Origin: a virus
DNA length: 38,758 bases
Direction: 5' to 3' (one strand)
IMG/VR virus record: IMGVR_UViG_3300042340_000245
Coordinates: 1-38,758 of that record
This document shows positions 3,453 through 21,013 of this stretch, piece by piece (positions within the stretch are counted from its first letter, which is position 1; each line of letters opens with the position of its first letter). The position numbers were made by a program, and so were the translations under genes. The notes below the pieces were generated by a model, which made no database searches, was not told the DNA's origin, and saw only the letters and a list, made by a program, of their open reading frames with translations.

Positions 3453-3670
3453 GTGGGCCTCCTAATCTCGAAATAAGTGATTGAAGTCTTGCCGCCATCG
3501 ATGCGCACTCTTTCCTTGCGCAGGATGCCTTTATCCAGCAGTCGCGTGATTGTGAGGTTAAGAGACGAACGGTTCATTCCCGCACGCTTGATAATCTCGA
3601 CGAACGGCAGACGTGGAGTTGGCTTAAAGAGCGCCAGGAGGCGCTCGTCGTTAGAGATTCCAGTTGACAT
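3449..3670 (-). CDS. Winged helix-turn-helix DNA-binding protein, 73 aa
   Basis: The sequence pattern FVEIIKRAGMNRSSLNLTIT followed by RLLDKGILRKERV, a basic wing and a final strand (TSITYFEI) is that of a winged-helix transcription regulator of roughly MarR/IclR-like layout. It starts inside the last codons of the endolysin gene (20-base overlap). Its stop overlaps the start of the 51-residue membrane protein. A role in regulating the lysis block is plausible but inferred. Confidence 0.7.
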   Translation of the reverse strand: MSTGISNDERLLALFKPTPRLPFVEIIKRAGMNRSSLNLTITRLLDKGILRKERVRIDGGKTSITYFEIRRPT

Positions 3671-4949
3671 CGAGAACCCTCGGATTGTGCTTCCTCAGCG
3701 CTGCGACGAACCTCTTAAGATCTGAAATATCGCGAAACACAACGCAGCCAGCAGAGCCAGGAGAAGCGCCAATGTTGTGGTCTTGATGTATGCCGAAAGC
3801 CCCACGGTCATCGCTAAATTCAGCATCAAGGCCAACCCACACAGGGCCCAGACCAGCGCCAAAAGAGCCCTCATAGTTGTCCTTTCCGTTGGCAAATTCG
3901 ATTGAGCCGATGCGGTACCGACCTTGCGGAATTGGTTCGAGGTTTCCTGGAAAGCTCCGAGGGTCTTGAGGACGGCGGAGCGTCTGGCGTCCGCGAGCGC
4001 CTGAGGCGACAGCGAAAGTGTCGTCGCCGACGTAGAGAATCAGGTTCTTTAGCCCAGCCCATGCGCCGACGTACTCGCCACCTGTTGCACGCAGAGTCGC
4101 CACGCTGTTGTCTACTGGCGGCTTTGGCGCACGCGCTTTCGTGAGTGCTGCTTCGATGGCTGCGCGAGTCTTTGGGCCAACGATGCCGTCCATGTGCTCC
4201 TTGCCAAATGTGTTTCCTTGGAAAACGCGAACCGCGTACTCCACATGCTCATTGAACACGTCGCCAACGAGCTCGCCATCGGCTGGCTTGCGCAGGTATC
4301 CGAGGCCGATGAGCGCGCATTGAAGGTGGTAGATGTCATCGCCAAACGGCATGACGCTTGACGTCATTATGTTGCCTAGGTTGCGCGTCCACGGCAACGG
4401 CACCGGACACGGTGCGTAGTGTCTGCCCTGTGTCGATACAGGCGCATCAATCGGGGTTTGTGGTGCAGGTATCGATACAGCGCGCAAGAACAACTCGCGC
4501 TCTGCTTTGCGGCGGCGTGTGAGGCCAGCAAGCTCTGTCAGCTGCCCGTTGATTGTGCCTTTGTTCCACATAAGGAACGCCTCAGCACAGCCACGATAAT
4601 CGCCAGCGTTGAGCAAGCGACGCGCGGTTGAGCCAGCGAAAGCGCCAGCGCCAATGTTATAGCAAAGAGACACAAGCGCCGCGTGTTGATTCTCGTTCAA
4701 CTCAACCTTGACAAGACGTTCGATATCCTTTTCAAACCCTGCGACTTCTGCTTCGAGAAGCTCTTGCGCCAGCTTGCGCGAGATGACGTCACCACGTCGC
4801 ACGGGGCGACCGTTGAGCATGATAGAGCCCCATCCGACCGTCCAGACGCCCACGGGGTCAATGTAGGCTTCAGCATCTCCGTTTGGAAGCTCGCGGTGGT
4901 AGCCTTCGAATTCTTTGATGAGGTCGAATCCGGCTTTATTTGTCTTCAT
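3651..4949 (-). CDS. Three-domain endolysin: GH24 lysozyme, peptidoglycan-binding, L,D-transpeptidase-like
   Basis: Residues 7-155 are a T4-type (GH24) lysozyme: Glu15 in KEFEG, Asp31 and Thr37 in the D-x5-T motif (DPVGVWT), then VGWGS. The spacing from Glu15 to Asp31 is longer than in T4 lysozyme. Residues about 205-270 match a PG_binding_1 repeat (LQCALIGLGYL ... VGPKTRAAIEAAL). Residues about 285-425 look like a YkuD/L,D-transpeptidase or DUF2778-type domain, with FGIHQD and the Cys motif SPGSAGCVVF. The product should cleave host peptidoglycan at lysis. No signal peptide is seen, so export would need a holin. The start has AAAGGA upstream. Length (432) is long for a GH24 endolysin. Confidence 0.88.
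   Translation of the reverse strand: MKTNKAGFDLIKEFEGYHRELPNGDAEAYIDPVGVWTVGWGSIMLNGRPVRRGDVISRKLAQELLEAEVAGFEKDIERLVKVELNENQHAALVSLCYNIGAGAFAGSTARRLLNAGDYRGCAEAFLMWNKGTINGQLTELAGLTRRRKAERELFLRAVSIPAPQTPIDAPVSTQGRHYAPCPVPLPWTRNLGNIMTSSVMPFGDDIYHLQCALIGLGYLRKPADGELVGDVFNEHVEYAVRVFQGNTFGKEHMDGIVGPKTRAAIEAALTKARAPKPPVDNSVATLRATGGEYVGAWAGLKNLILYVGDDTFAVASGARGRQTLRRPQDPRSFPGNLEPIPQGRYRIGSIEFANGKDNYEGSFGAGLGPVWVGLDAEFSDDRGAFGIHQDHNIGASPGSAGCVVFRDISDLKRFVAALRKHNPRVLDVNWNL
3695..3874 (-). CDS. Candidate nested holin, 59 aa, out of frame inside the endolysin gene
   Basis: An ATG at 3874, with AAAGGA five bases upstream, opens a frame wholly inside the C-terminal part of the endolysin gene. It encodes two hydrophobic segments, about residues 3-26 (ALLALVWALCGLALMLNLAM) and 33-53 (TLALLLALLAALCFAIFQIL), and ends in RGSSQR. 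Two spans with a basic tail is a class II holin layout. Frames shifted within GC-rich genes can be hydrophobic by chance, so this is a candidate only. Confidence 0.4.
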   Translation of the reverse strand: MRALLALVWALCGLALMLNLAMTVGLSAYIKTTTLALLLALLAALCFAIFQILRGSSQR

Positions 4950-6052: not shown

Positions 6053-6103
6053 GTTCTCATTCTCCGCCAGGAGGTTGTCACTCGTGACTGAGTGATGGCC
6101 AAC

Positions 6104-6131
6104 ATCTAACGAGAGCGTTAGCCTGAGTCAA
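6104..6131 (-). promoter_or_regulatory. Candidate sigma70 promoter with embedded operator palindrome
   Basis: On the minus strand, TTGACT (6131-6126) is followed after 16 bases by TTAGAT (6109-6104). A perfect 6-bp inverted repeat, CTAACG-AGAG-CGTTAG at 6106-6121, overlaps the -10 element and spacer, which is where a repressor would block initiation. It lies between the helix-turn-helix gene at 6138 and the gene starting at 6052. The -10 match is weak. Confidence 0.4.
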
Positions 6132-6137
6132 GAGGTT

Positions 6138-6350
6138 TTACCCAACTTTCTTCATCTTCAATTTGCGCCCAACCGAGGCCTCTGAGCCCGTCGACAGGAC
6201 GACTGTTGGTTTGGGTACGAGCCAGTCTGTTCCGACCTTCCTTGCCCCCGGAATGCGGTTCGCAATGCAAAGCTGCCGGAGCCTTCCTGTTGTCACTCCC
6301 AACGCTTCGGCGGCTTGCGAGACAGAAATGTAGTTCCCTTCGAGTTTCAT
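6138..6350 (-). CDS. MerR/excisionase-type helix-turn-helix protein, 70 aa
   Basis: The start is set at 6350, with AGGAA upstream; an in-frame start exists at 6404. The pattern YISVSQAAEALGVTTGRLRQ followed by LCIANRIPGARKVGTDWLVP is the standard DNA-binding module of excisionase/MerR-like proteins: helix-turn-helix, then a wing with G-x2-W-x-[IVL]-P. The tail is basic. With no integrase in the genome, it is more likely a transcription regulator than an excisionase. The palindrome at 6106-6121 is a possible target. Confidence 0.75.
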   Translation of the reverse strand: MKLEGNYISVSQAAEALGVTTGRLRQLCIANRIPGARKVGTDWLVPKPTVVLSTGSEASVGRKLKMKKVG

Positions 6351-6400
6351 CGTTTCGGTTCCTGTTTGCTCATCATTGTTTGTAACGACTGCGATAGAAA

Positions 6401-6430
6401 CCATTACTGATTCGAAGCAGAGCAGGTCAA
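6401..6430 (-). promoter_or_regulatory. Weak candidate promoter for the minus block
   Basis: On the minus strand TTGACC (6430-6425) is followed after 18 bases by TAATGG (6406-6401), about 50 bases before the start at 6350. The -35 element is good and the -10 poor, so this is a low-confidence call supported mainly by its position at the head of the block. Confidence 0.25.
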
Positions 6431-6457
6431 CCGAAAAAGGACCTCAAAAAAACAACT

Positions 6458-6470
6458 GTGGCACTGTGGC
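6458..6470 (+). repeat. Iteron-like repeat copy 1 (forward)
   Basis: The sequence is GTGGCACTGTGGC. It is the same orientation as copy 2 and opposite to copies 3 and 4. A degenerate relative (GTGGCGCTTGATGTGCCA) follows at 6477-6494. Confidence 0.7.
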
Positions 6471-6533
6471 GTATGTGTGGCGCTTGATGTGCCATTAGAT
6501 AAGCACATGTTATTACAAAAAAAAACACGTACG

Positions 6534-6547
6534 GTGGCACCGTGGCA
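6534..6547 (+). repeat. Iteron-like repeat copy 2 (forward)
   Basis: The sequence is GTGGCACCGTGGCA, differing from copy 1 only at the central C/T. It lies 76 bases downstream of copy 1, measured start to start. Confidence 0.7.
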
Positions 6548-6620
6548 ATAAAAGAACACACCTAAAATTTATCAAAGCCAAAAAAAAGAGCAGAAAGGAT
6601 TTCTCCTCTCCGCTCGGGTG

Positions 6621-6644
6621 CTTAAAATATAGTCAGATTTTAAG
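6621..6644. repeat. Inverted repeat with 8-bp arms
   Basis: CTTAAAAT (6621-6628) and ATTTTAAG (6637-6644) are perfect inverted repeats separated by eight bases. The AT-only core suggests a protein-binding palindrome or an easily melted element at the centre of the control region, since the T tract expected of a terminator is absent. Confidence 0.55.
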
Positions 6645-6660
6645 TATAGTTGCACCATTC

Positions 6661-6679
6661 TGTATCAAATATAGATACA
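6661..6679. repeat. Inverted repeat with 6-bp arms (operator-like)
   Basis: TGTATC (6661-6666) and GATACA (6674-6679) flank the AT spacer AAATATA. The 19-bp length is typical of a dimeric repressor site. It lies between the two opposing iteron pairs. Confidence 0.5.
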
Positions 6680-6703
6680 GACAGGGGGGTGGGTCGGAAC
6701 CCA

Positions 6704-6717
6704 TGCCACAGTGCCAC
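6704..6717 (-). repeat. Iteron-like repeat copy 3 (reverse)
   Basis: TGCCACAGTGCCAC is the reverse complement of GTGGCACTGTGGCA, so it matches copy 1 with one further base. Confidence 0.7.
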
Positions 6718-6774
6718 TTTTGTCGATTTCTCTTTTAGATCATGTGCTTCCGAGTGGCTGGTCAGCACCACGTT

Positions 6775-6788
6775 TGTGCCACGGTGCC
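6775..6788 (-). repeat. Iteron-like repeat copy 4 (reverse)
   Basis: Read on the minus strand this is GGCACCGTGGCAC, matching copy 2 except at the first motif bases. The spacing from copy 3 (71 bases) is close to that between copies 1 and 2 (76 bases). Confidence 0.6.
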
Positions 6789-6850
6789 TCAGTTGAAAAG
6801 GCCAAAAACTCAAGGAACATCAGTAGGCTACGCCAAAACCTCAGTCGTGG

Positions 6851-9028
6851 TCAAGCCTGGGTCGGCCTGTATTTGGTGGCGCGCGGTGTTCGAACCCTCG
6901 TTAACACCCCGGCGGCGGCAAGGTTGTCGAAAATCTTTGTGAGTGCATCTATTTTGAGCTTTCTAATGACAGACTTACGAGAAGTGCATTTGATAACCTC
7001 GGAAACAGTCATATCGAAGCGCTTCTCAGCAAACACCGACAAAATCTTGTCTGCGGCCCTTTCCTCAAGAGTCTGCGCGTTGAGCACATCCCCTCGAACA
7101 ACGCTCCAGTTCCACTTCGCCAGGGCAAGGGCAAACTCCGCGTCGACTTCTTCGACAGCGCTCATGCCGCGTCCCATTGCGTGAATGAGCGCGTACTTAT
7201 CGACGAGTGCGAGGTGCCTAGACCTCATGCTTGAAATTTCCTCCAGTTCGTCATTATCCATTGATGCTTCCTCTTTGAGCAGTTCTTTGACCCACCGTTC
7301 TTTGGCGTCTGTAATCGGACTTACGTCACCAAACGGCTTCAAGGCGCTTGGCGCGTAGCTCATCCCTCCCGCTTGAACGGTTAAGCCATCCCTTGCGTTG
7401 GTTAAGATACGACGTAGGGCGTCAACGATTGCTTGCCGCGGCTCCCACCTCGGCTTTGATACCGCGGAAAGAGGCAGGGACTCGGGATGGACAAAATAGG
7501 CGAAGCGGCTCGCAAGCCCATCAGAATGGTAGGCACGTACGGCAAAGAGCTCGCGCATGGTCTGCAAGGTCGAAACGCCAATCATGGAAAGCGTCGCAAG
7601 GGCTACGGGAGGCACCGATGCTTCGCGCCGTTCAGCAGGGAGCATGTTGGTCTGTTGGTAGTACTTGAGGAACAAAGAAACGATATTACGAGCGCCTACC
7701 TGCTTGTTTATATATGCCTCTTCAATAAGCTTGCCGAGCTCATCTTCTGCGTAAGTTCGCGAAGGGCAATCGGACATAGCCTTTTGAAACACGATTTCGC
7801 TCGCCACATTCGGCAACAGGAGGTTTGAGTCAACCTCGGACACGTAAGTCTTCACAAACTCAAGGAAGAAGCTCTTTGTCGAGCTTGAAGGTCCAACTAG
7901 GAAGCAGAGCAAGTTGGGAGCCTCCCCTGTTGGCCACTTTCTAGCTCGTTGAACGACGCCAGCGACCACGGAGAGGGCAGCGGCCATCCGGAAAGCAGGA
8001 ACCTCTCTAGAGAGGCTGCAAACATGGTCGTAGAGCTCTCGAACAAGCCCAGACGACTTGCTTATCGCTATGGCAAGAAGATCTTTGGGAGGCTCACTTG
8101 TGATAATCGTCATTATCGATGGTGGGGGCTCTGGGGTTTTGGGCTTCTCGACCTCCTTCATCGGATACCTCTCGGCAAGGTCAAGAAGACGCGAAAGACC
8201 CACAAGCGGCTCGCCTGTTTGCGCGCGCTCCCGTTCACGTTCTGGCATGTCTCTCCAGATACGTTGGACCTGAAGCTCTGTTTTACCCGCTCGCCAGCGA
8301 TGACCTCCGTTTTCCTTCGACCACGCCAAAAAGAGCTCAAGCGCTTCCTTTTTGTTTGTCATTCGATACACAGCGGCGAGAACTTGCCACCAATCCGGAT
8401 AGGGAATGTCTGCCGAGATATCCCACAACCAAGCTTTAACGGTGTCGTCGTAGTGGTCTGACGTCTCTGTTGATTGAGCGTTCCCGACTGAAATGGGTTC
8501 TTTGCACGTCATTTCAAGAAACCAATCAATCCAAGACTCTGGAAGGGTGGGCAACTCTCCTTCCGATTCCATCACATCTTGTATGGAAACTTCCCACTCG
8601 TACGCACCGCTGTATTTCTCTCCCTGGTATGTGGAAGGAGGCAAAAGGCAGTAGTGGTTTCCTGTGCGCATCTCCATTCCATGGGAGCGCCCTAAATCGC
8701 ATTTTGGAATCACTCTCCCAGGATTCCTGTAGAGAATGCCAAGGCCTCCTGAAGGCGTTCTGTACGTTGGCGCCATTGGCAGTCTGCCGAGAGCTTCTTC
8801 GAGGGAAGGCAACACGCGCGTGCCGTCTGCGCTGCCAACCTTCCTCGGACCTTCGATATCCAAAACGACCAATTCTAGTCCGCAAACAACGGCAATATTC
8901 TCTCCGCTGAGCTTCAATTCAGAAAATGGCTTTGCCGTTTCTAGCCACTTTTCCTTAGGTATTTTGCTACCGCGCGGAAGAGTAAAAAAACGACTTGACA
9001 GCGCGGAAAGCTGAGATAATGTATCCAA
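6851..9028 (-). CDS. Primase-polymerase fused to DUF3987-type helicase-like domain, 725 aa
   Basis: Residues about 10-165 are an archaeo-eukaryotic primase (prim-pol) domain: Asp57 and Glu59 in VVLDIEG, the Gly-rich TPSGGLG turn, MEMRTGNHYCLLPPSTY. Residues about 195-275 fit a PriCT-type primase C-terminal domain (PDWWQVLAAVYRMT ... ELQVQRIWRDM). Residues about 320-560 resemble DUF3987: a P-loop-like GPSSSTKS (379-386) in which Thr384 replaces the usual Gly, and a Walker-B-like DEL at 429-431. It should prime and unwind phage DNA at the origin. The start is TTG 9028 with GGAGG upstream. It is divergent from the recombination operon. Confidence 0.85.
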   Translation of the reverse strand: MDTLSQLSALSSRFFTLPRGSKIPKEKWLETAKPFSELKLSGENIAVVCGLELVVLDIEGPRKVGSADGTRVLPSLEEALGRLPMAPTYRTPSGGLGILYRNPGRVIPKCDLGRSHGMEMRTGNHYCLLPPSTYQGEKYSGAYEWEVSIQDVMESEGELPTLPESWIDWFLEMTCKEPISVGNAQSTETSDHYDDTVKAWLWDISADIPYPDWWQVLAAVYRMTNKKEALELFLAWSKENGGHRWRAGKTELQVQRIWRDMPERERERAQTGEPLVGLSRLLDLAERYPMKEVEKPKTPEPPPSIMTIITSEPPKDLLAIAISKSSGLVRELYDHVCSLSREVPAFRMAAALSVVAGVVQRARKWPTGEAPNLLCFLVGPSSSTKSFFLEFVKTYVSEVDSNLLLPNVASEIVFQKAMSDCPSRTYAEDELGKLIEEAYINKQVGARNIVSLFLKYYQQTNMLPAERREASVPPVALATLSMIGVSTLQTMRELFAVRAYHSDGLASRFAYFVHPESLPLSAVSKPRWEPRQAIVDALRRILTNARDGLTVQAGGMSYAPSALKPFGDVSPITDAKERWVKELLKEEASMDNDELEEISSMRSRHLALVDKYALIHAMGRGMSAVEEVDAEFALALAKWNWSVVRGDVLNAQTLEERAADKILSVFAEKRFDMTVSEVIKCTSRKSVIRKLKIDALTKIFDNLAAAGVLTRVRTPRATKYRPTQA

Positions 9029-9057
9029 GGCTCGGGTATCCTCCGGGCTTTTTATTT
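9027..9057 (+). terminator. Terminator-like hairpin between divergent replication genes
   Basis: AAGGCTCGG (9027-9035) pairs with CCGGGCTTT (9043-9051) with two G-U pairs, a seven-base loop and a TTTTTATTT tract. On the plus strand it would stop transcription just before the operon at 9084. On the minus strand the same bases include the primase ribosome site and its TTG start, though two pairs become mismatches. Confidence 0.5.
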
Positions 9058-9083
9058 ACGGTATGTTCTAACGGTGTAGTAAT

Positions 9084-9791
9084 ATGATTGTACGGGGAAA
9101 GCAAACGAGGTCGTTTTTCGCTCTGTTGTACGGCGCGCCAAAGGTGGGAAAGACTCATCTTGCCGCACAAGCGCCGGAGCCGCTCATCATAGACGTCGAC
9201 CGCGGAAGCGGGCAATTCGACGTCGCGAGAATCGACAAACTCGTGAACAAGACTGCGCTTATGGAAGCTCTTCGTATCGCCTACGCAGAGCAAGGCTTTA
9301 AGACAGTCGTCATTGACAGTGTAACCGCGGTGGAAAGGTTGCTTGTCAAAGAGTGCCTCCTTGTAAACAAGTGGAAGACTCTTGAAGACCCAGGTTACGG
9401 CAAGGGATTTACAGCGCTTACACAAGAATGGACAGACGTTCTCTCTGCTCTGGAGCGCATTCGTGATGCCGGAAAGAACGTCATTCTGATTGGGCACCAA
9501 AAGGTCAAAAGCGTAAATGACCCAACGTTGGATGTTTACGACAGGCTTGAGCTTGACATTACGAAAAACGCAACTACAGCTATCGTTGCCGCTACAGACG
9601 CGATTCTGTTTTACAGGTGGAAAACACGCGTAAAGAAAGAAGATAACGGAAAGAGAAGCGTCGGCGTTTCAACCGGAATTCGAGAGCTTTATACACAAGA
9701 GAAAGCTGGCTTCTTGGCGGGTAATAGATTCGGTTTAGACGTATGTATTGAAAATCCAACGAACGAAACGCTATGGGAGAAGATGAAATGA
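9084..9791 (+). CDS. Sak4-like RecA-family ATPase (AAA_24), 235 aa
   Basis: Walker A is GAPKVGKT (residues 17-24) and Walker B is VVIDS with Asp78. The segment IIDVDRGSGQFD after the P-loop and the conserved GHQKVK motif near residue 137 are typical of phage AAA_24/Sak4 single-strand annealing proteins related to RecA/Rad51 cores. It probably promotes ATP-dependent annealing or recombination of phage DNA together with the next gene's product. No clear ribosome site precedes the ATG. The stop overlaps the start of the next gene. Confidence 0.85.
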   Translation: MIVRGKQTRSFFALLYGAPKVGKTHLAAQAPEPLIIDVDRGSGQFDVARIDKLVNKTALMEALRIAYAEQGFKTVVIDSVTAVERLLVKECLLVNKWKTLEDPGYGKGFTALTQEWTDVLSALERIRDAGKNVILIGHQKVKSVNDPTLDVYDRLELDITKNATTAIVAATDAILFYRWKTRVKKEDNGKRSVGVSTGIRELYTQEKAGFLAGNRFGLDVCIENPTNETLWEKMK

Positions 9792-19687: not shown

Positions 19688-21013
19688 GTGATAAACGCGT
19701 GGGAGCTTCGGCCTATCCAGTCTCTCGTCGCGTCTGCGTTCTTTCACTACAAACACGTCATGCTCATGCTCCCTAGACAAGAGGGGAAGACAGAGCTTGG
19801 CGTGCGTATTGATAGGCATTGCATCGCAAACACACACGAGACAAGGCAGGCCATCTTTCTCACAAAGAGCAAAGAGGCGGCAAAGAAGATGACAAGGGAG
19901 AAGTTCTCTCGCATCTTCGAGCCAGAAGACTTCCAAGTAAACACAGAAATCATCGTCAACAAGAACATGCCTACCAACGTCATGTTCATAGACTCTGTGG
20001 ACAAGCGCCCTGACAAGCTTCGAGGCGGCACTTATCACCTTATCAACTGGGCGGAAGTCGCGTTCTCCGAGTTCGACATGGGCGTGACTGTCCATGACGT
20101 GAACCACAAGATTCTGCGCCCTACTCTTCGTGCCACCCGTGGGTATTCCTTTCTTGAGAGCACGCCAAACGGCTCCAATGGCTGGAAGGAGATGTGGGAA
20201 GACACAGAGCAATACCCTTTACCAGACGAAGACAACCCAGGGACGGGCTACAAGCGTCTTGTGTTTCCTCTTTCGAAGCTTGTTGAAATGGGGTTTCGAA
20301 CCAAAGAAGAGTACGAATTTCTCAAAAACACCATGCCAGACTTGGAGTTCTTGCAGGAATACGAATGCCAGTTTGTCTCATTCCAAGGTCGTGCGTACCC
20401 CGAGTTTATGCCGCACATGGTCTGGTCAGAGATGCCTCCTCCGCAACACTGGCAGCGCACGTTCTTCGCCATTGACTGGGGTTACAACCCTTCTGCAACG
20501 TGCGTCTTGTTTGGCTATGTGCTCGACGGGCGGGTGTGTGTCTTTGATGAGATTTACGGAACAGAAATGCTTCTCGACGAAATACAATCGAAGATTCGTC
20601 AGAAGATGGGCCAATGGCAGCTTCGATATGTTGCTGGCGTTGCCGACCATGACCCTCGGTCGAACAAGGAGCTTGAGATTCAAGGTATTCTCGTGACCCC
20701 TGTCGATAAGCTCAACGTTTACGGCAACAGGCTTGAGATAAAGACGCTGCTTAAGAATAACATGCTCTACATCCACCCGAGATGTGAGTACCTGATTCGG
20801 GACCTCAACAAGGCGCAGTGGGACCCGAAGAAGGAAGGCGAGATAGACTACAAAAACTGCAACTATGGGCACTATGACGGCGAGGCGGCACTACGGTACC
20901 TTGTCCGTGGGTTCAAACATCACGAAGCCGACGCGCCGAAGGTTCTCAAAGCCTCGGACAATGCGTCCAAAATGGAGGCTCTCCGACGTGGCGCTCTCTC
21001 TCGCCTCTCTTAA
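19688..21013 (+). CDS. terL: Terminase large subunit, 441 aa
   Basis: The GTG at 19688 has GAGG upstream. Walker A is PRQEGKT (residues 29-35). The Walker-B position reads INWAEVAF, with Glu123 as the catalytic carboxylate and Ala122 where Asp is usual. The coupling motif is FLESTPNG (155-162). The RNase H-like nuclease shows Asp263 (FAIDWGY), Asp320/Asp322 (VADHDPR) and Asp397 (HYDGEAALRY). This is the ATP-driven DNA packaging motor and headful nuclease, docking on the portal. A terminase of this type with a circular map is compatible with headful packaging. Confidence 0.92.
   Translation: MINAWELRPIQSLVASAFFHYKHVMLMLPRQEGKTELGVRIDRHCIANTHETRQAIFLTKSKEAAKKMTREKFSRIFEPEDFQVNTEIIVNKNMPTNVMFIDSVDKRPDKLRGGTYHLINWAEVAFSEFDMGVTVHDVNHKILRPTLRATRGYSFLESTPNGSNGWKEMWEDTEQYPLPDEDNPGTGYKRLVFPLSKLVEMGFRTKEEYEFLKNTMPDLEFLQEYECQFVSFQGRAYPEFMPHMVWSEMPPPQHWQRTFFAIDWGYNPSATCVLFGYVLDGRVCVFDEIYGTEMLLDEIQSKIRQKMGQWQLRYVAGVADHDPRSNKELEIQGILVTPVDKLNVYGNRLEIKTLLKNNMLYIHPRCEYLIRDLNKAQWDPKKEGEIDYKNCNYGHYDGEAALRYLVRGFKHHEADAPKVLKASDNASKMEALRRGALSRLS

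Follow-up and report, generated by a model that had tools for sequence, protein, structure and literature searches.

A facing iteron array directly 3' of a DUF3987 primase-helicase gene as a candidate replication origin in a tailed phage

Facing tandem repeats lie in the gap 3' of rep

We analysed a 38,758-bp IMG/VR virus record of a tailed phage (IMGVR_UViG_3300042340_000245, positions 1 to 38,758; hereafter the window). Its gene set includes a terminase, a capsid protein, an endolysin, a Sak4-like annealing protein, a DUF669 SSB-like protein, a DNA helicase and a VRR-NUC nuclease. The endolysin gene (3651-4949, minus strand; phage lysozyme plus peptidoglycan-binding domain) lies in the rep-side leftward operon, apart from the structural genes. 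A non-coding gap of 446 bp (6405-6850) separates the 3' end of rep from an HTH_17/excisionase-like gene:

6138..6404, minus strand: small HTH_17/excisionase-like DNA-binding protein, adjoining the proposed origin
6851..9028, minus strand: rep, encoding Prim-Pol, PriCT_2 and DUF3987 helicase domains and ending in a predicted winged helix (about residues 654-722); candidate initiator that would bind the iterons

With rep on the minus strand and its end at 6851, the gap lies directly 3' of it, as the first-pass annotation had it when placing the block just downstream of a primase-helicase gene. Within the gap are tandem dimers of the form GTGGCAC(Y)GTGGC at four sites. Two lie on each strand, the pairs facing each other, and the units repeat with an 8-bp period:

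6458..6471, plus strand: left outer iteron dimer GTGGCACTGTGGCG, 1 mismatch, with an extra GTGGCGC unit at 6477
6534..6547, plus strand: left inner iteron dimer GTGGCACCGTGGCA, exact
6704..6717, minus strand: right inner iteron dimer GTGGCACTGTGGCA, exact
6777..6790, minus strand: right outer iteron dimer GAGGCACCGTGGCA, 1 mismatch, closest to rep

Two forward and two reverse copies had been reported earlier, with similar spacing within each pair (76 and 71). All four sites were found, but the last starts at 6777 rather than 6775, and this 2-base slip accounts for the value of 71; the right-hand spacing is 73. A motif scattered through the genome had been named as a finding against an origin. 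The array is instead confined to the gap, with no further copy at up to two mismatches elsewhere in the 38,758-bp record, while the rate in shuffled sequences at up to one mismatch was 0.08 per genome, with 2 as the maximum. An unbiased scan, scoring 6-mers of any sequence that cluster on both strands, ranked positions 6426-6825 (GTGGCA, three forward and three reverse) as the top 400-bp segment of the record, at 8.06 compared with 4.4-7.2 in 25 shuffles.

Between the inner iterons lie the following features:

6548..6703, no strand: core, 62% AT; candidate region for melting and helicase loading
6588..6615, minus strand: intrinsic terminator, a 12-bp stem followed by T8
6621..6644, no strand: core hairpin CTTAAAAT-8-ATTTTAAG
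6659..6681, no strand: core hairpin TCTGTATC-7-GATACAGA

Describing the core as AT-rich is fair, though its AT richness is moderate (62% in 6548-6703 vs roughly 46% in the record); an 80-bp stretch at 6507 has the third lowest GC content in the record. The two palindromes noted there are both real (6621-6644 and 6659-6681) and make up two of the five perfect hairpins with stems of at least 8 bp in the whole record, with a folding z of -4.5. Core hairpins are not a general feature among the relatives described below. Transcription of rep probably stops at the strong terminator, within the core of the proposed origin.

Rep is a DUF3987 primase-helicase with a predicted C-terminal winged helix

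Window Rep matched the PHROG 3022 profile of DUF3987 phage primase-helicases (phrog_3022, E 3e-17) and PF13148 (38.8 bits, cut-off 27). A published prediction assigns DUF3987 to the helicases of mobile elements (PMC5862659). The Pfam search returned no DUF927 or D5 match for window Rep, placing it outside the SaPI Rep families (DUF927 or D5_N/Primase_Cterm).

A first structural model of Rep had a pLDDT of 45, and a model built with 63 sequences reached 72, with the helicase core and the C-terminal helices mostly at 80-95. Two additional C-terminal strands complete a winged-helix pattern in the earlier model, and Rep is predicted on these models to end in a winged helix. Foldseek matched the model to MCM-type AAA+ helicases (E about 1e-5, with a low TM of about 0.25-0.28 over the whole query) and also to phage DUF3987 proteins. 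The family profile A6, unlike the window protein alone, matched the 'DNA primase' chain of 7OLA/7OM0, which we take to be SaPI5 Rep, over the primase half (E 4e-56). Over the same half it also matched NrS-1-like primase chains.

Near relatives keep the layout and change the repeats with Rep

Homology searches with window Rep gave no match in isolates or IMG/VR, searching the gap against isolates gave none either, and a scan of genome contigs found no relatives. Relatives were recovered through capsid-protein and profile queries, and the capsid scans identified two near relatives, L006 (major capsid protein 92% identical) and L007 (99%). In both, the Rep gene has diverged (about 29% identical) and is followed directly on its 3' side by the same layout as in the window, made of unrelated repeats. 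A motif search in relatives had been suggested; in these two the layout beside rep is kept with a different repeat sequence.

Where alignable, L007 shares about 92-97% DNA identity with the window over much of the structural region, and the nucleotide match is lost at 6100-9364. Within that region the flanking HTH protein (51% identical) and Sak4 (61%) are still recognisable, while L007 Rep is 29% identical to window Rep and has no Prim-Pol part. Directly 3' of rep, L007 carries GGCGACAA repeats, with eleven GGCGAC units in both orientations surrounding a perfect 17-bp hairpin. L015, whose Rep is 67% identical to that of L007, shares with it a common GCGACA repeat core and spacing.

L006 carries TTGGTTGCG-type dimers, two facing two, directly 3' of rep. 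Read in rep orientation, its TTGGTTGCG units lie at 28, 37, 105 and 114 (forward) and at 278, 287, 355 and 364 (reverse), and the window units lie at 68, 133 and 141 (forward) and at 303, 311 and 387 (reverse). Spacing is almost identical, with an inner gap of 162 bp in the window and 164 bp in L006 and an outer-to-inner distance of about 65-76 bp, and no repeat sequence is shared between the two. The gene at the HTH position in L006 has no detectable HTH match. Taken together, the comparison of Reps and repeats among the window, L006, L007 and L015 indicates that the repeat word tracks Rep, not the phage backbone or the conserved HTH protein.

A more distant phage, L011 (capsid 52% identical), has opposed GTGGAACAG repeats at 2599-2940, 3' of a gene for a 526-aa protein. 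This protein has a P-loop-like motif, no detectable similarity to window Rep and no Pfam match, which suggests, as far as sequence goes, that the layout is not confined to one helicase family. The L011 word GTGGAACAG resembles the GTGGCAC of the window.

Arrays recur 3' of DUF3987-type helicase genes

Among isolated phages that carry this helicase family, similar arrays were found in the gap 3' of the helicase gene in Stenotrophomonas and Variovorax phages (GGGGATAG), in Vibrio phages VpKK5 and 033B (AAAGGGAA) and in Microcystis phage Me-ZS1 (AAAAAGGA). Escherichia phage Halfdan has a comparable but less clear 3' array, and that of Synechococcus phage Ssp-JY40 sits about 0.4 kb farther from the gene. 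The two examined isolates with a window-like Prim-Pol arrangement, Loktanella phage pCB2051-A and Roseobacter phage CRP-901, have no array 3' of the gene.

In Loktanella phage pCB2051-A (L027, 5277-5649), two long inverted repeats with arms of 41 and 56 bp lie 3' of the Prim-Pol/DUF3987 gene, replacing short iterons. The primase-gene 3' gap of Stenotrophomonas phage Bhz54 (L021, 5552-5705) has a perfect 77-bp tandem duplication with iteron-like units. In Manatee Spring phage MW202458 (L005, 39951-40400), AACAGC words (5 and 2) cluster beside the helicase gene, possibly as an origin of another type.

A scan using an alignment of four such helicase-family proteins as the query yielded 80 more loci. 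Among the 68 loci that went through the unbiased repeat scan, 28 scored at least 8, and the top cluster of 14 of these fell in the roughly 1-kb 3' zone (2.8 expected), so that strong-score clusters just 3' of rep reached five times expectation. Within 2.2 kb downstream the count was 22 of 28 (6.4 expected). Over all 68 family loci, the best cluster was in the immediate 3' zone in 21, and in the others further downstream or, for many loci, not detectable. Several unrelated words share one geometry, namely a forward pair followed after 72-105 bp by a reverse triplet with 7-9 bp spacing, and then a forward unit about 45 bp on. A single-switch strand model over all loci outperformed random expectation only slightly (22/2000 shuffles), since other fixed patterns, e.g. 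> > core < < < >, occur in several groups. Repeat similarity correlated with Rep similarity in 23 non-redundant members (Spearman-Mantel 0.55, 0/2000 permutations). This correlation is partly due to shared ancestry, and the contrast between the window and L007 is the cleaner control.

The gap is likely a replication origin

We consider it likely that the gap at 6405-6850 is the replication origin of this phage, with the adjacent Rep recognising the tandem repeats through its winged helix and loading its helicase at the core. An origin had been proposed here on first reading, and its location on the 3' side of a helicase gene of the self-loading type, the facing iterons around an AT-richer core and the recurrence beside other Reps all support it. 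Its strongest support is comparative, as the layout is kept while the repeats change together with Rep. Cumulative GC skew, proposed earlier as a check for an origin peak, has its minimum off the block at 8954, a divergent gene boundary, and not at 6627. Since skew follows gene direction here, it is uninformative and speaks neither for nor against an origin.

Paired loading of an initiator had been suggested earlier, with DNA binding by the primase-helicase or the helix-turn-helix proteins as a check. The primase-helicase itself, acting through the C-terminal winged helix predicted from the models, is a more likely initiator than the small HTH proteins. This winged helix would recognise the 8-bp-period tandem repeats, and we propose that Rep or its C-terminal domain binds GTGGCACYGTGGCA DNA. 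Rep would then assemble on the two facing wings, so that the core would receive two helicase assemblies with opposing polarity. It may melt the core, perhaps helped by the hairpins. One hexameric helicase ring would be loaded per fork, giving bidirectional replication, and the Prim-Pol domain would prime.

The repeats could instead be an operator array to which a regulator, perhaps the small HTH protein (6138-6404), binds to control the promoter of the leftward operon or the expression of rep. The gap does lie upstream of the leftward HTH/endolysin operon and has the strong rep terminator inside it, and self-regulating iterons are common in plasmids. However, the HTH protein is conserved in L007 (51% identical) while the repeats are wholly different, which weakens this explanation. 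Moreover, no HTH match is detectable for the gene at the corresponding place in L006, phages with other downstream genes also have the array after rep, and promoters in the gap are not above chance (1 found, 0.6 expected). We therefore regard an operator as unlikely.

Arm-like repeats that face each other across a core, with an HTH_17/excisionase-like neighbour, would also suit an attP with arm-type integrase sites. Yet the repeats track the helicase, and no tyrosine or serine recombinase (PF00589, PF00239) was found in the window, L006, L007 or L015 records, which are possibly incomplete. The lack of a recombinase in these four records weakens the attP explanation, which we have set aside as very improbable; both it and the HTH operator are weaker than a replication origin. 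Clustered repeats with hairpins can serve partition and packaging too, and a parS- or pac/cos-like site might sit beside rep by chance. The terminase gene is far from the gap (TerL at 19688), however, and phages of other lineages have the layout beside rep as well, leaving such a site with very little probability.

Implications

On a more tentative level, DUF3987 phage helicases may make up a wide class of self-loading replicons. Within it the facing-iteron geometry would be fixed, and the DNA-binding domain of Rep would be swapped together with the iteron 'word' as a cassette between otherwise near-identical phages, giving private origins unusable by co-infecting relatives or satellites. We hold this to be possible, though somewhat doubtful. 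The origins of most tailed phages are unmapped, and if the position of one gene family predicted both the origin and its repeat word, many would become testable at once. Near-identical phage pairs with swapped rep-ori cassettes supply a ready-made specificity code for DNA-binding helicases and make it possible to ask if private origins shield phages from satellites or co-infecting rivals.

Comparison with known systems

The principle of a self-loading helicase with downstream iterons is already known. In the open-licence papers searched, we found no description of its DUF3987 phage version, of a conserved geometry with changing words, or of exchange between near-identical phages. The alpha protein of phage P4 combines primase, helicase and origin binding in a single protein, and the P4 ori and crr iterons differ from those of the window in arrangement and placement.

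PICMI marine satellites have a DUF3987 primase, AlpA and an integrase, and this primase is required for their full replication (PMC10803314). Like the window, they have an HTH_17/AlpA gene in the element (PMC10803314), but they are integrated satellites, whereas the window record has no integrase. The term 'iteron' is absent from the main text of their description (PMC10803314).

The primase-polymerase of phage NrS-1 resembles window Rep in combining Prim-Pol, a PriCT-like helix bundle and a C-terminal helicase ring in a phage, and related isolates match the NrS-1 HBD model. Its 8-nt recognition sequence occurs in two copies, one per strand, at the genome centre (PMC7102993). Unlike the window, NrS-1 has no facing iteron arrays 3' of the gene.

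In SaPI and SCCmec elements, Rep uses its C-terminal domain to bind iterons that lie just downstream of its own gene, SaPI Rep appears to bind as two hexamers, and an AEP primase is fused or nearby (PMC7581432). As in the SaPI rep-ori, and in SCCmec Cch2 with its downstream origin, the window has its origin candidate directly downstream of the helicase gene, and it resembles the SaPI type in having multiple short iterons (four dimer sites) flanking a 62% AT core. It differs in being a tailed phage with a DUF3987 helicase, not DUF927 or D5_N/Primase_Cterm, and in having iterons that are tandem dimers of 8-bp period in facing sets. For window Rep, the models predict a C-terminal winged helix, which may bind the iterons in the manner of the SaPI-type rep-ori. 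By analogy, the window system would work like a SaPI-type rep-ori in a different helicase family.
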